Program-made: the position numbers and the translations under genes | NCBI RefSeq assembly: GCF_002177135.1 | Contig: NZ_MWPH01000001.1 | Coordinates: forward strand, 1,054,001 to 1,118,000 | Direction of reading: 5' to 3' | Source of the DNA: Natronolimnobius baerhuensis | GTDB lineage: Archaea; Halobacteriota; Halobacteria; Halobacteriales; Natrialbaceae | DNA: 64,000 bases | Notes under the pieces: generated by a model | Seen by the model: the letters and a program-made list of their open reading frames with translations, nothing else | Database searches by the model: none | What the model was told of the DNA's origin: nothing | Shown here: in pieces, positions 19,106 through 54,803 of the stretch | Layout of the letters: every line of letters begins with the position of its first letter | Position numbering within the stretch: position 1 is the first letter of the stretch

Positions 19106-22100
19106 CTACTCTCCAACAGCTTCCTCAACGATCTCTATTTCTTCCTCAGTCAGCCCGTACAACTCGTAGACGATTTCATCTATCAGCTGGTCCGTTTTCT
19201 CGATTTTCGCCTCGAGTTCCTCAGCGCGGGCTTTGGTCTCGAGGTAACTCTCGAGGCCGTCTTCGACATCTGCGACGGCGGGCAGGGTGAGCTTTTGGAG
19301 GCGATCCACGAGCGAGTTGGTCTTGGTTGCGGTTTCGCGGAAGTTGGCGAAGCCGCCGGCTTCATCCACGGCGACGGGGACGAACGCCTCGATCAGGTCG
19401 GCTTCGGTTTCGGTGAGGTCCGAAATTCGGAGTGCGGGTTCGAACTCGGTTTCGGTGTACCCCCAACGGTCTGTTTCATACTCGTCGTCGTTTTCTGGTT
19501 TGTAGCGCGCGGTGAGTTGGATCTCAAGACTAATCTCGGAATTCCGTACAACCTCAACGGAACCAACCCGCAAGTTCTCACGCTCTTCGGTAGTCTCGCT
19601 GAGGATAGAATTCGCTACTCCCTTTGGGGGTTCCACTAAGCCAATCTCATTCAGTGAATGACCATCCTCGAATGTACCAAGATGATCATGGATGTTTAAA
19701 TTCAAATCGTATCGACTATTCGACTTCTCCATTAAGTGTTTTCCAAGGCCATCCAATAGATCATGTGTTTCTTGGTTTTTCCCGATTGAATACTTCTTTT
19801 TCAAAGACTTCTTATTGTATTGTGTGATTGACTCGATATCTGGTGTGTTCTCTTCTTCTTCAAAGTCAATCGACGGAATCGGGAGAGAGCGAGTTTCCGA
19901 TAGAACAATTTTAGGGAAATCATCTCTCAGTGCCACTGCAGATCTCCGAACCTGATAATACGACAAAGCAGCTGAGTTCAGGATTGCCAACAAATACCCC
20001 GCCCCATAATGATCGTTATCTATCAGGATACTCTGGTGTGACTTGTTTGTGACGAAGTCCTTATCGGTGAGAACTAGCTGAAGTCTAAATTGCCTACTGA
20101 TCAATTCCCGTAGAATGAGTCGCTCACCAGTAAAGTATTTCTCTGGCTTATATTCAGCAATTCCATCATGGTATTCTACATATTGGTTGCCACTCACAGA
20201 ATATTTATAACGGCGAAGTTGGCCATCTAATCCAGTAGCATAGTCCTCTCCCCCATCATCAGTGAGATCAAATGGAGTTATTCCACGCTGAACATCTGCA
20301 ATTACAGACAGATCTATTCCGTTTCTAGCTATTTTCTCACTTATATCCAACTCGCTCTTATTCATATATGATAAGAAGCCATATTCGTTATCCGAATCAA
20401 GATGAGAAGAGAACCATCTAGAGTAATTCACATCCGAGGATTTCTCGGAATCATGGTCGATAGATGAGATGTTCTCTTTCCGGCCATAGTTTATTACAGA
20501 CAGAGAATCTGTGATATCTGGTGCAGTGCTTACTTGGTTAGATCGAGGGTATAAAATGAATACAGATGAGTCTACATATGCATCTTCGAAGACATCATAT
20601 GGAAGATTCACTATACTATTTAATCCGACATCATGAACCAACCATGATCTGAATTTACTATAATTGTCGGAGGTTTGCCACCCACTTGGGAGAATAAATC
20701 CTATGTAGCCGTTCTGAGTGCAGATATCGGGAGACAGTTTGGTGAATAGCGCAAATGTGTCAGTAGTCGACTTTGAAATAGAATAAACATTAGATGCGTA
20801 TTCAATGGTCTCCTCTCCCAAGTTTGCTCCCCAAGGCGGATTCCCAATCACCGCATCAAACCCAGCATCCGCTCGCTTCTCCCCATCCTGATCAAAGAAA
20901 ACCTCCGGAAACTCGAGTTCCCAGTGGAAAAACGCCTCGCCCTCAGCCATCGCCTGCGCTGATTGGAACCAGCCTTCCTCGCGCACGTCGGCCCACTTGT
21001 CTTCGTCGTCGATTGCACCCGCCATCCGCTCGTAGGCCCCCTCGGGCACGTCCAGATCGAATCGCTCCGCCGTGTGGACGTTCGTCAACTCGAACAACCG
21101 CTGGTAGAACGGATCGCTTCGCACCTCGTCGTACAACTCCTCCATCGACTTGATGTCCTCGAGCGTCTCGTTATCGATCTCGAGCAACTCCTGCACGCGG
21201 TCCATGACGTGATCGAGCGTCCGCTCACGAACACGGGCAAACGACTGCTGGAGCGTCAGTTGCCCACCGTCGTCCTCGGCGTCCGCACCGTTCGACAGCA
21301 CCGCCGTCACGTCCGACCCAACCAGCGAGTTGCCCGCCTTCAAGTGGTGGTCCAGAAACGCCAGCGGCTGATCCGCCGCGAGCGTCTCGAGCCACATCGA
21401 GAGCTTCGCGAGTTCGACCGCCATCCCGTTCAAGTCCACGCCGTAGATGCACTCCTTCGCCACGTCCCGGCGCACTCGCTGCTCGTCGAACGCCGTCGCC
21501 TCCTCGATCTCGCGCACCTCTTCCATCACCTGCTGAGCAAGATACTCCGTCGCCCGCGTCAGGAAGTGCCCGCTGCCCATCGCCGGATCGAGAATCGTCA
21601 GATCCAGCACCCGACGGTAAAACGCCCCGAGATACTCGTGCGTTCCCGTCTCGAAGCCCTGCTCCTGGAGGTCCGCCCGAATCTCGTCAATCAGCGGGTC
21701 GACCGTTTCCTCGACGATGTACGTCACCACGTAGTCCGGCGTGTAGTACGCCCCCGTGGCCTTGCGCTCGCCCTCGTCGTTGACGACATACAGCCCACCC
21801 GAATCGACGGTCTCGACCGCGTCCGCAACCGACACCTCCGTTGCGGGTTCCCAGACCTGCCCGCCATCTTCCGACACCGCCGCGTAGTCCTCCGGCGCGA
21901 TTCGGAACTGATGCTCGAGCAGTCCCTCGTAGACGCTGCCCAGATGCCGTGTATCCAAATCCGCGTAGTCGGCCAGCACGTACCGCCCCTCGTCGTTTTC
22001 GGTCGTCGAAATCCGGTAGATAACCTCCGCGAGATAGCGGTTGCTCACCTGATGGTTCGTCAGGAACTCGTGGTTCTCCTGATTGAACAGCCCGCCGTTG

Positions 22101-23209
22101 TACGGCGGAATCCCCAGCGACTCCTCGCCTTCGTCGACCAGCCGAAACAGATCCTCGAGCCGACTCCACATTGTCGTCGAGTGCTCGCTGTAGGTGTCGA
22201 AGCCGTCGTCAACCTCGCCGATTTCCTCGTGAATCTCGAGTCGCAGTTCGTTCAGGCTGAAGTTCTCCTCGTACTCCGTGACAGCGTCGCCACCCTCCGG
22301 GTGAATAAGCCCTCGCGACTCGGCGTAGAGGACGAACATCAGCCGGTACAGCAACACCAGCGACTGCTCTTTCAGCGCCCCGAGTGCAGCCGCATCGTCC
22401 GGATCGATATCGAGATCGTTCGTTTCGGCGAACCCACGCCCGAGCACCCGCAACGCGGTGAAGACGTTATCTTGCAGATCCTCTCCTAACTCCTGGGCGA
22501 CGGTCTCGCTTTCCGACCAGACCGAATCGAGAAACGTCGATCCCGAAGACTCCTGAAACGCCTCCGGTCGAAAGAAGACGTAGAAATATTTGAACGCCTC
22601 AAGGTTGCCGCGCTCGAGCAATGCAGGGAGATCGACCTCGTAGTACGTCTGCGTCTCGTAGTCGTTCGTCCCGTAGAGTCGCCACTTGCGCCCGTTCGTG
22701 AGCACGCCCCACTGAATCGTCTCGGGCGTCCGCTCGAGATAGTGTTTGATCTGGTGGGAGGCGTTTCGATACGGCCGCTGCTCACTAAACCGAGTCGTGA
22801 AGTCGGCATCCCACTGTTTTGCTTCCAGCAACCCAACTGCGCGTTCGAATAGATCAGTCGTGTCCTCGGTACTGAGGTACACTTCGGCGGCGTCTCGCCG
22901 ACTTGTCGAATCCTCGAAGAGCAGTTCGTCGACGTAGCCACCACCCTCCGGCAGCGTCGTCTCGACGTTCGTCCCGAACCCGAGCACGTCGAGCACCTCG
23001 TCGATCCAGTTGTCGATCAGCGCATCTTCCTTGTACCCATCCACCAGTCCGGACTCGAGGTCGGACAGCGACTGCAACTGCTCCATCGCTGCCCGCGCAG
23101 CCTCGTCACAGTCCCACTCATCGCGCTCCTGTACGCGCTCGTCGAGATAGTGTCCAGAGAAGAGATTCGAATTTGCGTATGGCCGATCCGACAGCGTCGC
23201 CTGACTCAT
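19106..23209 (-). CDS. Type IIG restriction-modification enzyme (Eco57I/MmeI-like)
   Basis: One 1367-residue chain appears to hold nuclease, methyltransferase and specificity functions. Near the N-terminus VDELLF (about 91) and LLEAKQWD (about 126-132) form a PD-(D/E)xK-type nuclease pattern. Methyltransferase motif I is DPAMGSGHFL (about 538) and motif IV is NPPW (about 790), an N6-adenine signature. The next 400 residues should be the target-recognition domain, and the end is a coiled coil. The stretch encoding about residues 800-1190 (19640-20810) is AT-rich and lacks CTCGAG, unlike both flanks, so the specificity part looks recently exchanged. No partner subunits, BREX or DISARM genes are adjacent; a solitary type IIG enzyme fits best. 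Confidence 0.85.
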   Translation of the reverse strand: MSQATLSDRPYANSNLFSGHYLDERVQERDEWDCDEAARAAMEQLQSLSDLESGLVDGYKEDALIDNWIDEVLDVLGFGTNVETTLPEGGGYVDELLFEDSTSRRDAAEVYLSTEDTTDLFERAVGLLEAKQWDADFTTRFSEQRPYRNASHQIKHYLERTPETIQWGVLTNGRKWRLYGTNDYETQTYYEVDLPALLERGNLEAFKYFYVFFRPEAFQESSGSTFLDSVWSESETVAQELGEDLQDNVFTALRVLGRGFAETNDLDIDPDDAAALGALKEQSLVLLYRLMFVLYAESRGLIHPEGGDAVTEYEENFSLNELRLEIHEEIGEVDDGFDTYSEHSTTMWSRLEDLFRLVDEGEESLGIPPYNGGLFNQENHEFLTNHQVSNRYLAEVIYRISTTENDEGRYVLADYADLDTRHLGSVYEGLLEHQFRIAPEDYAAVSEDGGQVWEPATEVSVADAVETVDSGGLYVVNDEGERKATGAYYTPDYVVTYIVEETVDPLIDEIRADLQEQGFETGTHEYLGAFYRRVLDLTILDPAMGSGHFLTRATEYLAQQVMEEVREIEEATAFDEQRVRRDVAKECIYGVDLNGMAVELAKLSMWLETLAADQPLAFLDHHLKAGNSLVGSDVTAVLSNGADAEDDGGQLTLQQSFARVRERTLDHVMDRVQELLEIDNETLEDIKSMEELYDEVRSDPFYQRLFELTNVHTAERFDLDVPEGAYERMAGAIDDEDKWADVREEGWFQSAQAMAEGEAFFHWELEFPEVFFDQDGEKRADAGFDAVIGNPPWGANLGEETIEYASNVYSISKSTTDTFALFTKLSPDICTQNGYIGFILPSGWQTSDNYSKFRSWLVHDVGLNSIVNLPYDVFEDAYVDSSVFILYPRSNQVSTAPDITDSLSVINYGRKENISSIDHDSEKSSDVNYSRWFSSHLDSDNEYGFLSYMNKSELDISEKIARNGIDLSVIADVQRGITPFDLTDDGGEDYATGLDGQLRRYKYSVSGNQYVEYHDGIAEYKPEKYFTGERLILRELISRQFRLQLVLTDKDFVTNKSHQSILIDNDHYGAGYLLAILNSAALSYYQVRRSAVALRDDFPKIVLSETRSLPIPSIDFEEEENTPDIESITQYNKKSLKKKYSIGKNQETHDLLDGLGKHLMEKSNSRYDLNLNIHDHLGTFEDGHSLNEIGLVEPPKGVANSILSETTEERENLRVGSVEVVRNSEISLEIQLTARYKPENDDEYETDRWGYTETEFEPALRISDLTETEADLIEAFVPVAVDEAGGFANFRETATKTNSLVDRLQKLTLPAVADVEDGLESYLETKARAEELEAKIEKTDQLIDEIVYELYGLTEEEIEIVEEAVGE

Positions 23210-46996: not shown

Positions 46997-49867
46997 GTGT
47001 GCGACAGCGACACCGTCTGTGAGTACGTGGCTCGAAAGGATGAACCGGAAACGTGGCATGGGGACGAGCCAGCGCAGTGGACGCTCGACCAGCGGGTGGA
47101 TCGAGGGGGCCTCGACGCAACGGCCTGGGCGTGCCCGCACCCACCGATGACGGCTGGCGGTGATGCTGATGCCGGTGGCACCGATGTTGGCGACGACGAG
47201 GGACAGCTCGAGGGCGACCGATACTGCGTCTTTCATACACCACCGGACGACCGGCCCACCGACATCGACGAGCGGGCTGAACTGCTGGACGCGATTGATG
47301 CAGCCGGAGAGGGGACGCGAACCGATCAGCCAGAACACCGCGGACAGTTCGTCGGGGCGACGTTCGAGTCGGTCGAGGCAACCGATCTCGAGTTCGTCGC
47401 GGACGAGAATCGGGATATTCGGTTCGATCACGCCGTCTTTCGCGGTGGCGAGGACGGCGTCTCGTTCGAGGGGGCAACAATACGGACGACCGGAGAGCAG
47501 CCGGTTTCGTTCGCCGGTGCGACGTTCATCGCTGAGGATGGCGACGTTTCGTTTGAGGGAGCAACGGTCAGAACCGACGGCGACGGAGACATCGTCTTCG
47601 ACGGTGCACGCTTTCGCGCCGGAGATGACGGGAACGTTCGGTTCGACGACGCCACGTTGATGACCGCTGCGGATGGCACGATATCGGCGCGGAACGCGAC
47701 GTTCACTGCTGAGGCGGGGCTCTCTTTCGATGGCCTGATAGTCACCACGGACGGGTCGGGTCAGGTCTGGTTCTACGATACCGACTTCGTGGCCAAAGGG
47801 GACGCGGGCATCTCGTTTGAGGATACAACGTTTTCGACTGCCGACGAGGGCAACGTCTTCTTCCACGACCTGACATTCCGCGCGACGGCCGGTCCTGTCT
47901 CGTTCGTCGATTCAACATTCGCTCCCGGCTCGAGCGGGATAGTCTCGTTTCACGATACGGCGTTTGCCACCGCGGGCAACGGGGCCGTCGCGTTCGACGA
48001 CGCGACGTTCCGCACCGAGGGCGCAGGCAACCTTTCGTTCGACGAGGCGGCGTTTACGACCACCGGAAGCGGGAACGTCCGGTTCGTCCGCGCGACATTT
48101 GAGACCCACGGCGAGGGAGATCTCCGGTTCAACGAGGCGACGTTTCACACCGAGGGCACAGCGAACGTCTCGTTCTACGACGCCACGTTCGAGTCCGACG
48201 GACCGGGAGCCCTCTCGTTCGACGAGTCAGTGTTTCTCGTCGGCGGCAAAATCTCGTTCAGCGACGCAACGTTCGTCGCATCGGACGGGACAGACCTCTC
48301 GTTCGAGGAGGCGACGCTCGAGGCGTCGAAACGGTTGTTTTTCGACGACGCAGAGATCATCGCCGCCGGTGGGTGCATCTCCTTCGAGAAGACGACGGTT
48401 ACCGCGACCGGCCCCCAGAGCGTCTCGTTCGATGGCGTGGACCTGCGCGCGGACGACGGCGACGTGACCTTCGCCGCCGCGCGGTTCAGGGCTGACGGCG
48501 ATGGACACGTGTCGTTCGTCGATACGGACGTCGTCACCGATGCCGAGGGCACGGTAACGTTCGCCGACTCGAGGTTCGCCGCTTCGGGTACCGGTCACGT
48601 GCGATTCGACGAGACCAGTTGGTACGGCCGGGTCTCGTTTGCAGACAGTATCTTCCGTTCGGAAACGTCGTTTCGCAACCAACGGTGTGATGGGACAACG
48701 GATCTCTCGTTCGCCGGTGGACGGATGGAGTCGTCGTTCGCGTTTACTGCAGCCGACTGGACGCAGGGCCAGTTCGACTTCAGCGGGGCGACCTTTCGCC
48801 GCAAACCGGACTTCCTGGGGGAGCCAAACGGCCGTTCGACGGAATTTACAAACAGCGAGCGAACGCCTGTCTTCGGCGAGCGAGTCGATTGTCGCGACAC
48901 GACGTTCCTCGCTGGCGTGGATTTGAGCGATGCGATACTGCCCGCGGACGCCTCGTTTGATCGTGCAGATCTCTCGAGTGCGGACTTCGTCAATTCGGAT
49001 TTCACGGGCGACGAGGACGCATCGCAAGCCTCGTTCGAGAGAGCGGACCTGTCGGGAGCCAATCTGTCGAGAGCGGTTCTCGTGGGGGCCTCGTTCGAAG
49101 GTGCGCGACTCAGCAGGGCACACCTGCTGGATGCAAACCTCGTTGGTACCGCCCTGTACGGCGCGTTACTCGGGGATGCGCGGATTAATCGTAAAACACA
49201 GTTCTGGCCCGAAACCGAGACGAACGGCTGGCGGCAACTCCTCTGTTCCCCCACGGAACCGGTGCTTCGACGCAGTTCCCTCCAGCGCCTCAAGACGGGC
49301 GCTCGCGGTGGAACGTTGCCATACTGTGTGTACGACCCTCGATATCCTCACTCGAACGAGGACGTCGCGTCGGACTGCGCCGTGACGAGCGAGGCCGACG
49401 CCGTAGAGAAGGCTGCCGAGACGTACGGTACCCTCGAGTCGGTCGCCCGCGAGAACAGTCTGTCTCGGCTGGCGAGTCAGTGCTTTCTCGGCCGCAAGGA
49501 CATCCAACTCCGGAAGTATCGACGGGAAGCCAACTGGCAAATGGTATGCCGGTCGATTGTGCCGAGTGTCGTCGCCCGGTACGGTGAGAGCCCATGGCGC
49601 GTACTCGGAACGGGGACGCTCACGGTCGTCCTCTGTGGGCTGGCGTACTGGGCGTTCGACCTCATCGAGCAGATCGGCGGCGAGAGCGGGTCGATCTCGC
49701 TGTTCGATGGACTCTACTTTAGCGCGCTCACGTTCACGACGCTCGGGTATGGTGATTTCAGACCGACAACTCGCGGTGGACAGGTACTGGCAGTCGCGGA
49801 AACCGCCTCAGGTGTGATCTTGCTCGCCATCTTGGTGTTCGTCTTCGGTCGGCGAGCGACACGCTGA
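46997..49867 (+). CDS. Solenoid-repeat potassium-channel-like protein
   Basis: The 956-residue protein (GTG start) has five parts. A Cys/His cluster opens it (CEYV, ACPHP, YCVFH; about 8-80), a likely zinc module. Then about 28 tandem units of 13-15 residues (about 125-550) follow, consensus N-V-S-F-D-D-A-T-F-x-T-x-G-x-G, giving a predicted right-handed beta-solenoid. Classical pentapeptide repeats come next (ADLSGANLSRAVL, about 640-730). A soluble linker follows. The C-terminus (about 860-956) is a two-helix pore with selectivity filter TTLGYGDF. The whole suggests a K+ channel with a huge cytoplasmic or exterior solenoid. No partner gene is adjacent. The 15-residue repeats are not a family I recognise by name. 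Confidence 0.78.
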   Translation: MCDSDTVCEYVARKDEPETWHGDEPAQWTLDQRVDRGGLDATAWACPHPPMTAGGDADAGGTDVGDDEGQLEGDRYCVFHTPPDDRPTDIDERAELLDAIDAAGEGTRTDQPEHRGQFVGATFESVEATDLEFVADENRDIRFDHAVFRGGEDGVSFEGATIRTTGEQPVSFAGATFIAEDGDVSFEGATVRTDGDGDIVFDGARFRAGDDGNVRFDDATLMTAADGTISARNATFTAEAGLSFDGLIVTTDGSGQVWFYDTDFVAKGDAGISFEDTTFSTADEGNVFFHDLTFRATAGPVSFVDSTFAPGSSGIVSFHDTAFATAGNGAVAFDDATFRTEGAGNLSFDEAAFTTTGSGNVRFVRATFETHGEGDLRFNEATFHTEGTANVSFYDATFESDGPGALSFDESVFLVGGKISFSDATFVASDGTDLSFEEATLEASKRLFFDDAEIIAAGGCISFEKTTVTATGPQSVSFDGVDLRADDGDVTFAAARFRADGDGHVSFVDTDVVTDAEGTVTFADSRFAASGTGHVRFDETSWYGRVSFADSIFRSETSFRNQRCDGTTDLSFAGGRMESSFAFTAADWTQGQFDFSGATFRRKPDFLGEPNGRSTEFTNSERTPVFGERVDCRDTTFLAGVDLSDAILPADASFDRADLSSADFVNSDFTGDEDASQASFERADLSGANLSRAVLVGASFEGARLSRAHLLDANLVGTALYGALLGDARINRKTQFWPETETNGWRQLLCSPTEPVLRRSSLQRLKTGARGGTLPYCVYDPRYPHSNEDVASDCAVTSEADAVEKAAETYGTLESVARENSLSRLASQCFLGRKDIQLRKYRREANWQMVCRSIVPSVVARYGESPWRVLGTGTLTVVLCGLAYWAFDLIEQIGGESGSISLFDGLYFSALTFTTLGYGDFRPTTRGGQVLAVAETASGVILLAILVFVFGRRATR

Positions 49868-53076: not shown

Positions 53077-54687
53077 TCACTGAATAGAGATGGCACCGTC
53101 CTCCTCGAGCGCCGCAGTCACAATCCCATCCTCGAGGAGTGCGACGACGGCCTCGATATCGGGCCGCACTGGCCGATCACCGGTCGCTGCGAGCGGCGGG
53201 ACGACCTCGCGAACCAGTTCGCGGGCGGCCGCCGTGCCAGCGCCGAGCGAGAGTGCCTCATCACTCTCGAACGCATCGTCGAGATAGTCGGCAGCCTCGG
53301 TCGCACAGACCAGTTCGGCGGCGACGACCCAGCGTGCCGACTCGAGAGCATGTCGGACATTGAGTGCCGAGTGCGCGCTCATGCTCACGTGATCTTCCTG
53401 TCCGCCGCTGACTGGCACGGTATCCGTCGATGTAGGCCCGAGCGAGCGAATGTCGGTACACTGTGCCGCAGCCGTGTACTGGGCGATCATGTAGCCCGAC
53501 TCGAGGCCGCTGTCGGCCGCAAGAAACGGCGGGAGGTGTGGCTCCTGCAGATTCGGATTGAGAAGTCGGTCGATGCGGCGCTCACTGATCGCTGCGAGAT
53601 CCGCAAGTGCGAGTCGCACGTACTCGAGGCGGAGGGCAAGCGGCGTGCCGTGGAAGTTGCCGCCCGAGAGCACGGCAGCGCGGTCGGTACCCGATGCCCG
53701 GTCGTCGACGCGGTCGGCGGCAAAGACGAGCGGGTTGTCAGTCGCGCTGTTGAGTTCAACTTCGACGGCGGCTCGAAGGTGCGAAATCGCGTCGCGAACC
53801 GCGCCGTGAACCTGCGGGAGACAACGCAGCGAGTAGGCGTCCTGCACGCGGTCGCAGTTTCGATGTGCCTCGACGACCTCGCTCCCTGCAGTAAGCGCGC
53901 GGACGTTCGCCGCGCTCGCTTGTTGGCCGGTGTGTGGACGAACCTCGTGAATCGCCGGCTCCGACGTTGCTGTCGTCCCGAGCGTCGTCTCCGTCGTCAG
54001 CGCACCTGCTGTATCAGCCGCGGTGACGAGTCGCTCGGCGTCGACCACCGCAAGTGCCGCGAGCCCGGTCGTTAATTGCGTCCCGTTGATCAGCGCCAGC
54101 CCTTCCTTTGGCTCGAGCGTCAGGGGTTCGAGGCCGATCTCCTCGAGCGCCCGTTCGCCGGAGATGCGCCGCGGTGTGTCCGAGTCGGCTGCATCGAGGT
54201 CGGCTTCGCCCTCGCCGATGAGCACTAGCGAGAGGTGGGCAAGCGGCGCGAGGTCGCCACTGGCACCGAGGCTACCACGAGCGTAGACGACCGGGTGAAC
54301 GCCCTCGTTACACAACTCGAGGAGGTGATCGACGACGCGTTCGCGGATCCCCGAATAACCCGTGACGAGGGAGTTAATCCGCGCGACAAGCATCGCACGG
54401 ACCTCCTCGCGGGCGAGTTCTCGACCCGCGCCGGCCGCGTGGCTTCTCAACAGGTTGACCTGCAGTTGCTCGCGCTTTTCCGGCGGAATCCGCTCATCGA
54501 CCAGTTCGCCAAAGCCGGTGTTGATCCCGTAGACGGCTTCGTCGCTTTCGATAACGTCCTCGACGCGCTTTCGGGACGTCCGAACGCGCTCGCGCGCATC
54601 GTCAGCGATTTCGACGCGCTTGTCGCCTCGAGCGACTGCGGCGACATCCTCCGGCGTGAGCGTTTCGCCGTCGAGAACGACGGTCAT
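53077..54687 (-). CDS. hutH: Histidine ammonia-lyase
   Basis: The 536-residue protein has the 4-methylidene-imidazole-5-one triad ASG in GSLGASGDLAPLAHLSL, the start MTVVLDGETLTPEDVAAVARGDKR, YGINTGFGELVDERI, and SGGNFHGTPLAL (with the conserved GGNFHG). The reaction is L-histidine to urocanate and ammonia, the first step of histidine breakdown. No hutU, hutI or hutG is adjacent. The 24 upstream codons before the Met at 54687 are unlike the family. Confidence 0.94.
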   Translation of the reverse strand: MTVVLDGETLTPEDVAAVARGDKRVEIADDARERVRTSRKRVEDVIESDEAVYGINTGFGELVDERIPPEKREQLQVNLLRSHAAGAGRELAREEVRAMLVARINSLVTGYSGIRERVVDHLLELCNEGVHPVVYARGSLGASGDLAPLAHLSLVLIGEGEADLDAADSDTPRRISGERALEEIGLEPLTLEPKEGLALINGTQLTTGLAALAVVDAERLVTAADTAGALTTETTLGTTATSEPAIHEVRPHTGQQASAANVRALTAGSEVVEAHRNCDRVQDAYSLRCLPQVHGAVRDAISHLRAAVEVELNSATDNPLVFAADRVDDRASGTDRAAVLSGGNFHGTPLALRLEYVRLALADLAAISERRIDRLLNPNLQEPHLPPFLAADSGLESGYMIAQYTAAAQCTDIRSLGPTSTDTVPVSGGQEDHVSMSAHSALNVRHALESARWVVAAELVCATEAADYLDDAFESDEALSLGAGTAAARELVREVVPPLAATGDRPVRPDIEAVVALLEDGIVTAALEEDGAISIQ

Positions 54688-54803
54688 CGGCGGCCACCCC
54701 GGATGGCTCGCCGTGGAGCAGCGGTGCTCGAGTAAGTCGGTCTGAGACAACAGGCACACGAGCGCACAAGAGTGAGGCGGATGGCGTCGTAACTGGCTGT
54801 TGT

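Follow-up and report, generated by a model that had tools for sequence, protein, structure and literature searches.

A predicted beta-solenoid joined to a potassium-channel pore in Natronolimnobius baerhuensis and related haloarchaea

Gene and domain layout

The locus studied here raises the question of what a long array of short repeats does in front of a potassium-channel pore. It lies in a 64,000-nucleotide stretch of the Natronolimnobius baerhuensis genome (hereafter the window), and the gene occupies positions 46997-49867 of the forward strand, stop codon included. It codes for a protein of 956 aa that starts with GTG at 46997, a start also used by an orthologue from the same genus (G096, 948 aa). 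A first-pass annotation had placed a Cys/His cluster, about 28 tandem repeats of 13-15 residues, pentapeptide repeats, and a pore with the motif TTLGYGD in a single open reading frame, and our results bore out this combination of parts, all on the forward strand.

The N-terminal cap (residues 1-110, positions 46997-47326) carries the putative metal ligands C8, C46, C77, and H80, each of which is kept in at least 90% of the 35 aligned homologues, Gammaproteobacteria included; metal binding by this Cys3-His cap is probable. The array (residues 141-545, 47417-48631) comprises 28 units of 13-15 residues, the last of 11, as delimited by repeat chaining and predicted strands. It is followed by transitional solenoid units of 10-11 residues (residues 546-637, 48632-48907), recognized by unit spacing and modelled strands, and by canonical pentapeptide repeats (residues 638-735, 48908-49201; PF00805, E 4.2e-15). 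Over residues ~638-735, PF00805 scored 55 bits against a cut-off of 20, at least 8 tandem repeats of the A(D/N)LXX type are present, and pentapeptide proteins of the PDB matched this stretch with E values down to 6e-12. The linker (residues 736-862, 49202-49582) contains predicted helices at 799-819, 823-843, and 847-862 and is kept in the orthologues. The two-helix potassium-channel pore (residues 863-956, 49583-49864; PF07885, E 1.2e-13) scored 51 bits against a cut-off of 22.5 over residues 882-955. AlphaFold2 predicted pore helices at 866-886, 902-914, and 926-955, and the modelled pore superposed on KirBac3.1 at 2.1 A over 89 columns in the structure search. The selectivity filter TTLGYGD (residues 914-920, 49736-49756) is invariant in the 35-sequence alignment.

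The inner helix is the end of the chain, and no domain follows the pore. Since the chain ends right after this helix, a C-terminal gating ring of the RCK type is missing, and any gating signal would have to reach the pore by way of the linker and the beta-helix on its N-terminal side. No 19-residue stretch reached a hydropathy of 1.6 before residue 869, and a secreted or surface adhesin was rejected because there is no signal or membrane segment ahead of the pore. No Pfam family exceeded its cut-off in residues 1-600. VirK (PF06903) matched the array below its cut-off, and in the relatives not one stretch passed; it was discarded as an artefact of repeat composition, as was DUF7289 in the Natrialba protein. 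Matches to Qnr, PipB2, and similar NCBIfam models fell far under their cut-offs and represent generic pentapeptide likeness.

Kinship and predicted fold of the array

Repeat finding, one of the checks proposed with the first-pass annotation, chained 29 units from residue 141 to residue 553, with spacings of 13-15 and a last spacing of 11. The chain score was 163.5, whereas 200 shuffles of the protein averaged 14.4 and reached 25.3 at most, with no more than 6 units. The autocorrelation of Phe peaked at lag 15 and next at lag 30. The consensus over 27 units is V1-x-F3-x-x-A6-x-F8-x-[AT]10-x-G12-x-G14-x, in which positions 1/3 and 6/8 correspond to i-2 and i of two successive pentapeptides and positions 11-15 to a Gly-rich loop. 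The array resembles a beta-helix of the pentapeptide kind, with this five-residue loop after every two pentapeptide faces, and ahead of the linker it grades into 11-residue units and then into true pentapeptides.

In sister proteins of Halorarius halobius, Pentapeptide_3 (PF13576) arrays of 10-11-residue units fill the place of the array, and a tblastn search with the array alone reached Streptomyces plasmid proteins (E 1e-14), whose VSFDGATFSGGD units are 12 residues long. The arrays of Halorarius halobius (L077, L122) and Streptomyces (L067, L068) resemble that of the window protein in having two pentapeptide-like faces per unit (VSFxxATF). However, their units have 10-12 residues rather than 15, and the Pfam models fall short of the array here, with their best PF00805 and PF13576 stretches at 676-717, outside residues 141-545. 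The Streptomyces proteins also lack a pore domain after the repeats, unlike the channel protein. Because of the residue pattern, the transitional units, and the Pentapeptide_3 arrays of the sister proteins, the array can be read as derived from the pentapeptide beta-helix; the pattern is plain in the units themselves, and from it we infer common descent with the pentapeptide repeats. The 15-residue unit would extend this beta-helix family beyond units of 10-12 residues. The solenoid had earlier been described as a family that was not recognized, which holds insofar as no Pfam family covers it and no solved structure matched it at E <= 0.001. Its supposed independence of pentapeptides is not supported, given the pairs V1/F3 and A6/F8, the passage to 11- and then 5-residue units, and its location, which in sister proteins belongs to Pentapeptide_3 arrays.

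Two side observations concern these shorter repeats. The genome of Halorarius halobius ZY10 codes for six solenoid-channel paralogues with 10-11-residue repeats (L077-L081, L122), and the longest contains 17 separately passing Pentapeptide_3 stretches. The Streptomyces plasmid proteins, with their long arrays, are probably membrane-anchored.

The AlphaFold2 model of the full protein, built with 35 sequences, had a mean pLDDT of 85.8 and a pLDDT of ~95 over the array, and the array alone, built with four sequences, reached a pLDDT of 95.2 and a pTM of 0.92. On account of these values the array is predicted to be a continuous solenoid, as the earlier annotation had supposed, whose strands fall on positions 1-4 and 7-10 of each unit. 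Confidence was low in the cap, part of the linker, and the loop 611-620. The best structural neighbours of the array, at TM-scores no higher than about 0.3, were right-handed beta-helices and pentapeptide proteins; a left-handed beta-helix or antifreeze-type solenoid was rejected, being absent from the top 50 neighbours. HetL, MfpA, and QnrB1 were among the best neighbours of the whole model and are likewise beta-helices with the inward pairs i-2 and i, but they have 20-residue turns of four pentapeptides and are not membrane proteins.

Between units an even number of steps apart, the inward residues resembled each other more than between units an odd number apart; three related proteins gave p 0.006, 0.16, and 0.02 and L072 gave p 0.017, but L033 and L037 did not show the effect. 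The number of such tests is small, the proteins tested are of common ancestry, and two of them failed. Units of atypical length fell mostly on one parity of unit number (0, 2, 6, 10, 12, 18, and 20 versus 15), followed by units 21, 23, 25, and 27. This parity pattern favours two 15-residue units per solenoid turn. The rod would be ~65 A long with two units per turn, which is the probable case, and ~135 A long with one.

Length, constraint, and the proposed role of the array

Homologue searches, also suggested with the first-pass annotation, yielded five further proteins that join the array to the pore. The window protein and these full or partial orthologues, six proteins in all, have an array of 15- or 16-residue units, the linker, and the TTLGYGD pore. 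The orthologues come from G096, Natronorubrum halalkaliphilum (G103), Natrialba sp. SSL1 (G047), G089, and G115, all of the same family; G115 is a metagenome-assembled Natrialbaceae genome whose protein ends at the contig end, with the cap unseen. In the scan of genome contigs, a single-sequence query found none and an alignment query found relatives. In the C-terminal tree the six proteins group together as a single clade with full support. At any level of similarity, 8 of the 391 haloarchaeal-class genomes matched the array, two of them weakly or spuriously; the match in G138 was rejected as a wrong-frame ORF within a protease-like gene.

Unit number ranges roughly fivefold, from ~7 in G089 through 28 in the window protein to ~35 in G047. 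Despite this change in length, identity stays high in the cap (51-66%) and in the C-terminal part (61-83%). The gene of Natrialba sp. SSL1 (L075:9460-10869) contains a 45-bp tandem repeat of 31.4 copies with 86% match, and no repeat of this kind remains at the DNA level in the window. Array length seems to change by tandem duplication. The copy number of the 45-bp repeat is likely to vary from strain to strain. Values of dN/dS were 0.22-0.27 for the cap, 0.27-0.34 for the array, and 0.09 for the pore. Within the array, the buried positions are kept in comparison with G103 (identity 96% at F3, 74% at [AT]10, and 70% at G14), whereas the surface positions 4, 5, 9, 11, and 13 are just 11-33% identical. 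Because only buried positions are kept, the array reads as a structural rod and not as a binding surface.

We consider it somewhat more probable than all other readings together (roughly 0.55) that the protein is a K+ channel that stands alone and is controlled from the N-terminal side, in the cytoplasm, with the array as a rod that holds the cap off the membrane. The chain would be one subunit of a channel that, by analogy, is a tetramer, and its selectivity for K+ is presumed from the filter. The last 95 residues would form the pore, and all preceding parts would lie in the cytoplasm. The helical linker would enter TM1 at the conserved YGESPWRV motif, and the N-terminal beta-helix would stand on it. 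The 28 units would make a rigid, acidic rod of the right-handed pentapeptide type, which may keep the putative metal-binding cap away from the membrane. A ligand or partner might be met by the cap, or by the pentapeptide-linker region as in HalA, and the array might mainly set distance and stiffness. The protein hints that control of channels of this kind may run through the rod. The first-pass annotation had offered two roles for the array, gating of the pore in response to a ligand or partner and an anchoring rod; the anchoring or spacer rod fits better, and ligand gating by the array itself agrees poorly with the fivefold length range and the poorly kept outward residues.

Long repetitive solenoids often bind repetitive partners, and the array could instead be a sensor: bound to a polymer, such as a nucleic acid, a polysaccharide, or a cytoskeletal filament, it would open the pore by pulling or twisting. 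The large number of units and the strongly charged surface (net -51 in 435 residues) are in line with such binding. However, strong acidity is usual in haloarchaeal proteins, the surface positions are barely kept among the orthologues, and unit number is highly variable, and we regard a sensing array as improbable. Alternatively, the array could be neutral slack, an internal tandem repeat that the fold tolerates and that has no effect on the channel. The 45-bp repeat in one species, the sufficiency of ~7 units in G089, and the rarity of the array among haloarchaea agree with this, but the dN/dS of the array indicates purifying selection, unit number and unit lengths are nearly equal in three species whose arrays are 45-69% identical, and complete loss of the array was not seen inside the clade. 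Neutrality is also an unlikely account, and the rod-bearing channel remains our preferred reading.

Two further proteins, L033:6516-8450 (-) and L072:5293-6879 (+), combine the cap and a 15-residue array with a two-helix C-terminus in which the filter is replaced by FTVAPPRIP. They are 55-61% identical to the channel group in the cap and 20-29% in the C-terminal part, and stand apart on a long branch in the C-terminal tree. On these figures, module exchange and fast decay after loss of the pore cannot be told apart. Given these filter-less paralogues, the cap-rod module may serve a purpose for which no K+ pore is required. Apart from them, many altered or lost filters (for example ALGGNEF, TGLGYGR, LTIGYGN, and FTGLVHE) were observed in haloarchaeal 2TM proteins of the pentapeptide type (L043, L039, L040, L044, L048-L050, L070, L071, and L165-L167), which suggests that K+ selectivity has repeatedly been lost or changed among them.

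HalA, genomic context, and the wider channel family

The parent architecture of cap, pentapeptides, linker, and pore is widespread in haloarchaea and Gammaproteobacteria. Proteins with PF00805 and PF07885 from both groups share with the window protein the Cys3-His cap, the pentapeptides, a helical linker, YGExPxR before TM1, TTLGYGD, and a basic C-terminal end. C8/C46/C77/H80, YGExPxR, and TTLGYGD occur in this order and hardly vary among 35 members from haloarchaea to Shewanella, Vibrio, and Aeromonas and, in part, Omnitrophota. The bacterial members have ~320-370 aa and no long array, whereas here 28 units lie between cap and pentapeptides. These PF00805 + PF07885 proteins are annotated solely as pentapeptide repeat-containing protein, and pentapeptide-linked K+ channels whose gating calls for explanation are present in hundreds of archaeal and bacterial genomes.

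The second match of the full model in the structure search was HalA, the channel effector of the bacterial anti-phage system Hailong, bound to oligodeoxyadenylate (PDB 9nyi; E 3.1e-4, 421 columns); the two superposed loosely, with an rmsd of 12.6 A and a TM of 0.34 by target. The NCBIfam HalA model (NF051894) matched 26 of the 35 family members, with the best match in L153 (E 1.6e-11, HalA 66-336). Because this best match spans HalA 66-336, beta-helix, linker, and pore of the family are collinear with those of HalA, which likewise has a beta-helix with a pentapeptide-like part, a linker, and a 2TM pore in the same order. HalA differs in having 338 aa and no array, and the part of its model that matches the relatives begins at 66, past their cap. 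HalA is the closest solved relative of the parent family, and the only ligand-bound solved one found; the window protein is a rare variant of this widespread family. The window protein itself is not HalA, as its score of 11-13 bits (E 0.04, over the pore part at residues 854-956 only) is far under the cut-off of 250 and no HalB adjoins the gene. The best match to HalB (NF051895) in the genome, 30.8 bits against a cut-off of 190, lies on another contig. Genuine HalA over the cut-off was absent from 49 gammaproteobacterial genomes.

Hailong is reported to make single-stranded DNA oligomers that suppress the effector until a phage exonuclease removes them (PMC12657230), and the HalA channel to be blocked by poly-dA (PMC13275509). 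The lesson from HalA is a limited one: a relative whose parts stand in this order has a ligand-controlled pore, and where no domain follows the inner helix such control has to act from the N-terminal side. A defence channel like HalA would be shut by a ligand on its beta-helix, in Hailong single-stranded DNA, and would open when a virus destroys the ligand, depolarizing the cell. In addition to the homologous part order, two neighbourhoods could be read in this way: in the Tc-Br11 metagenome-assembled genome a prokaryotic Argonaute gene (L036:1592-4237, -) lies tail-to-tail with the orthologue, and the filter-less L033 is flanked by integrase genes. However, within the window no defence model matched this gene or the ones around it, matches of the HalB type were weak and on other contigs, and the distance from the HalA cut-off is large. 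In G000, G096, and G103 the gene comes after a cobyric acid synthase gene and before a BAT/HTH_10 regulator, and this place shared by three species is vertical synteny, which also speaks against a defence role. Elsewhere the neighbours vary (a Cdc48-type AAA ATPase, a transposase-like integrase, or the Argonaute). Beyond the vertical synteny no partner gene was common to the orthologues, and none was common to the gammaproteobacterial relatives. The channel seems to stand alone, without a partner gene, and we think there is little likelihood that it serves defence as HalA does. A viral origin was rejected, since no relatives were found in viral contigs with the patterns used and phages gave only pentapeptide matches.

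Returning to the stand-alone channel controlled from its N-terminal side, its parts are known, and as far as our searches go the 15-residue unit, the length range, and the union with a K+ pore are undescribed. Among open-licence papers on pentapeptide repeats and channels, none dealt with prokaryotic pentapeptide-linked K+ channels, and the word "channel" is absent from a 2021 review of pentapeptide proteins. A more far-reaching proposal, which we advance as speculative and rather doubtful, is a class of ruler-type K+ channels akin to HalA, in which an amplifiable beta-solenoid sets the reach of a metal-binding sensing cap into the cytoplasm and the cap-rod module has been exchanged between live and filter-less pores. 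Since the natural orthologues differ mainly in rod length, they make it possible to study how channel control depends on it.

Two other genes of the window may be mentioned. The gene at 19106-23209 (-) codes for 1367 aa with Eco57I/N6 methylase and TaqI_C specificity domains, and its product is probably a methylase of the restriction-modification or BREX-like type. The gene at 53077-54759 (-) codes for an aromatic amino acid lyase (PF00221, E 1.7e-179), which is probably a histidine ammonia-lyase.
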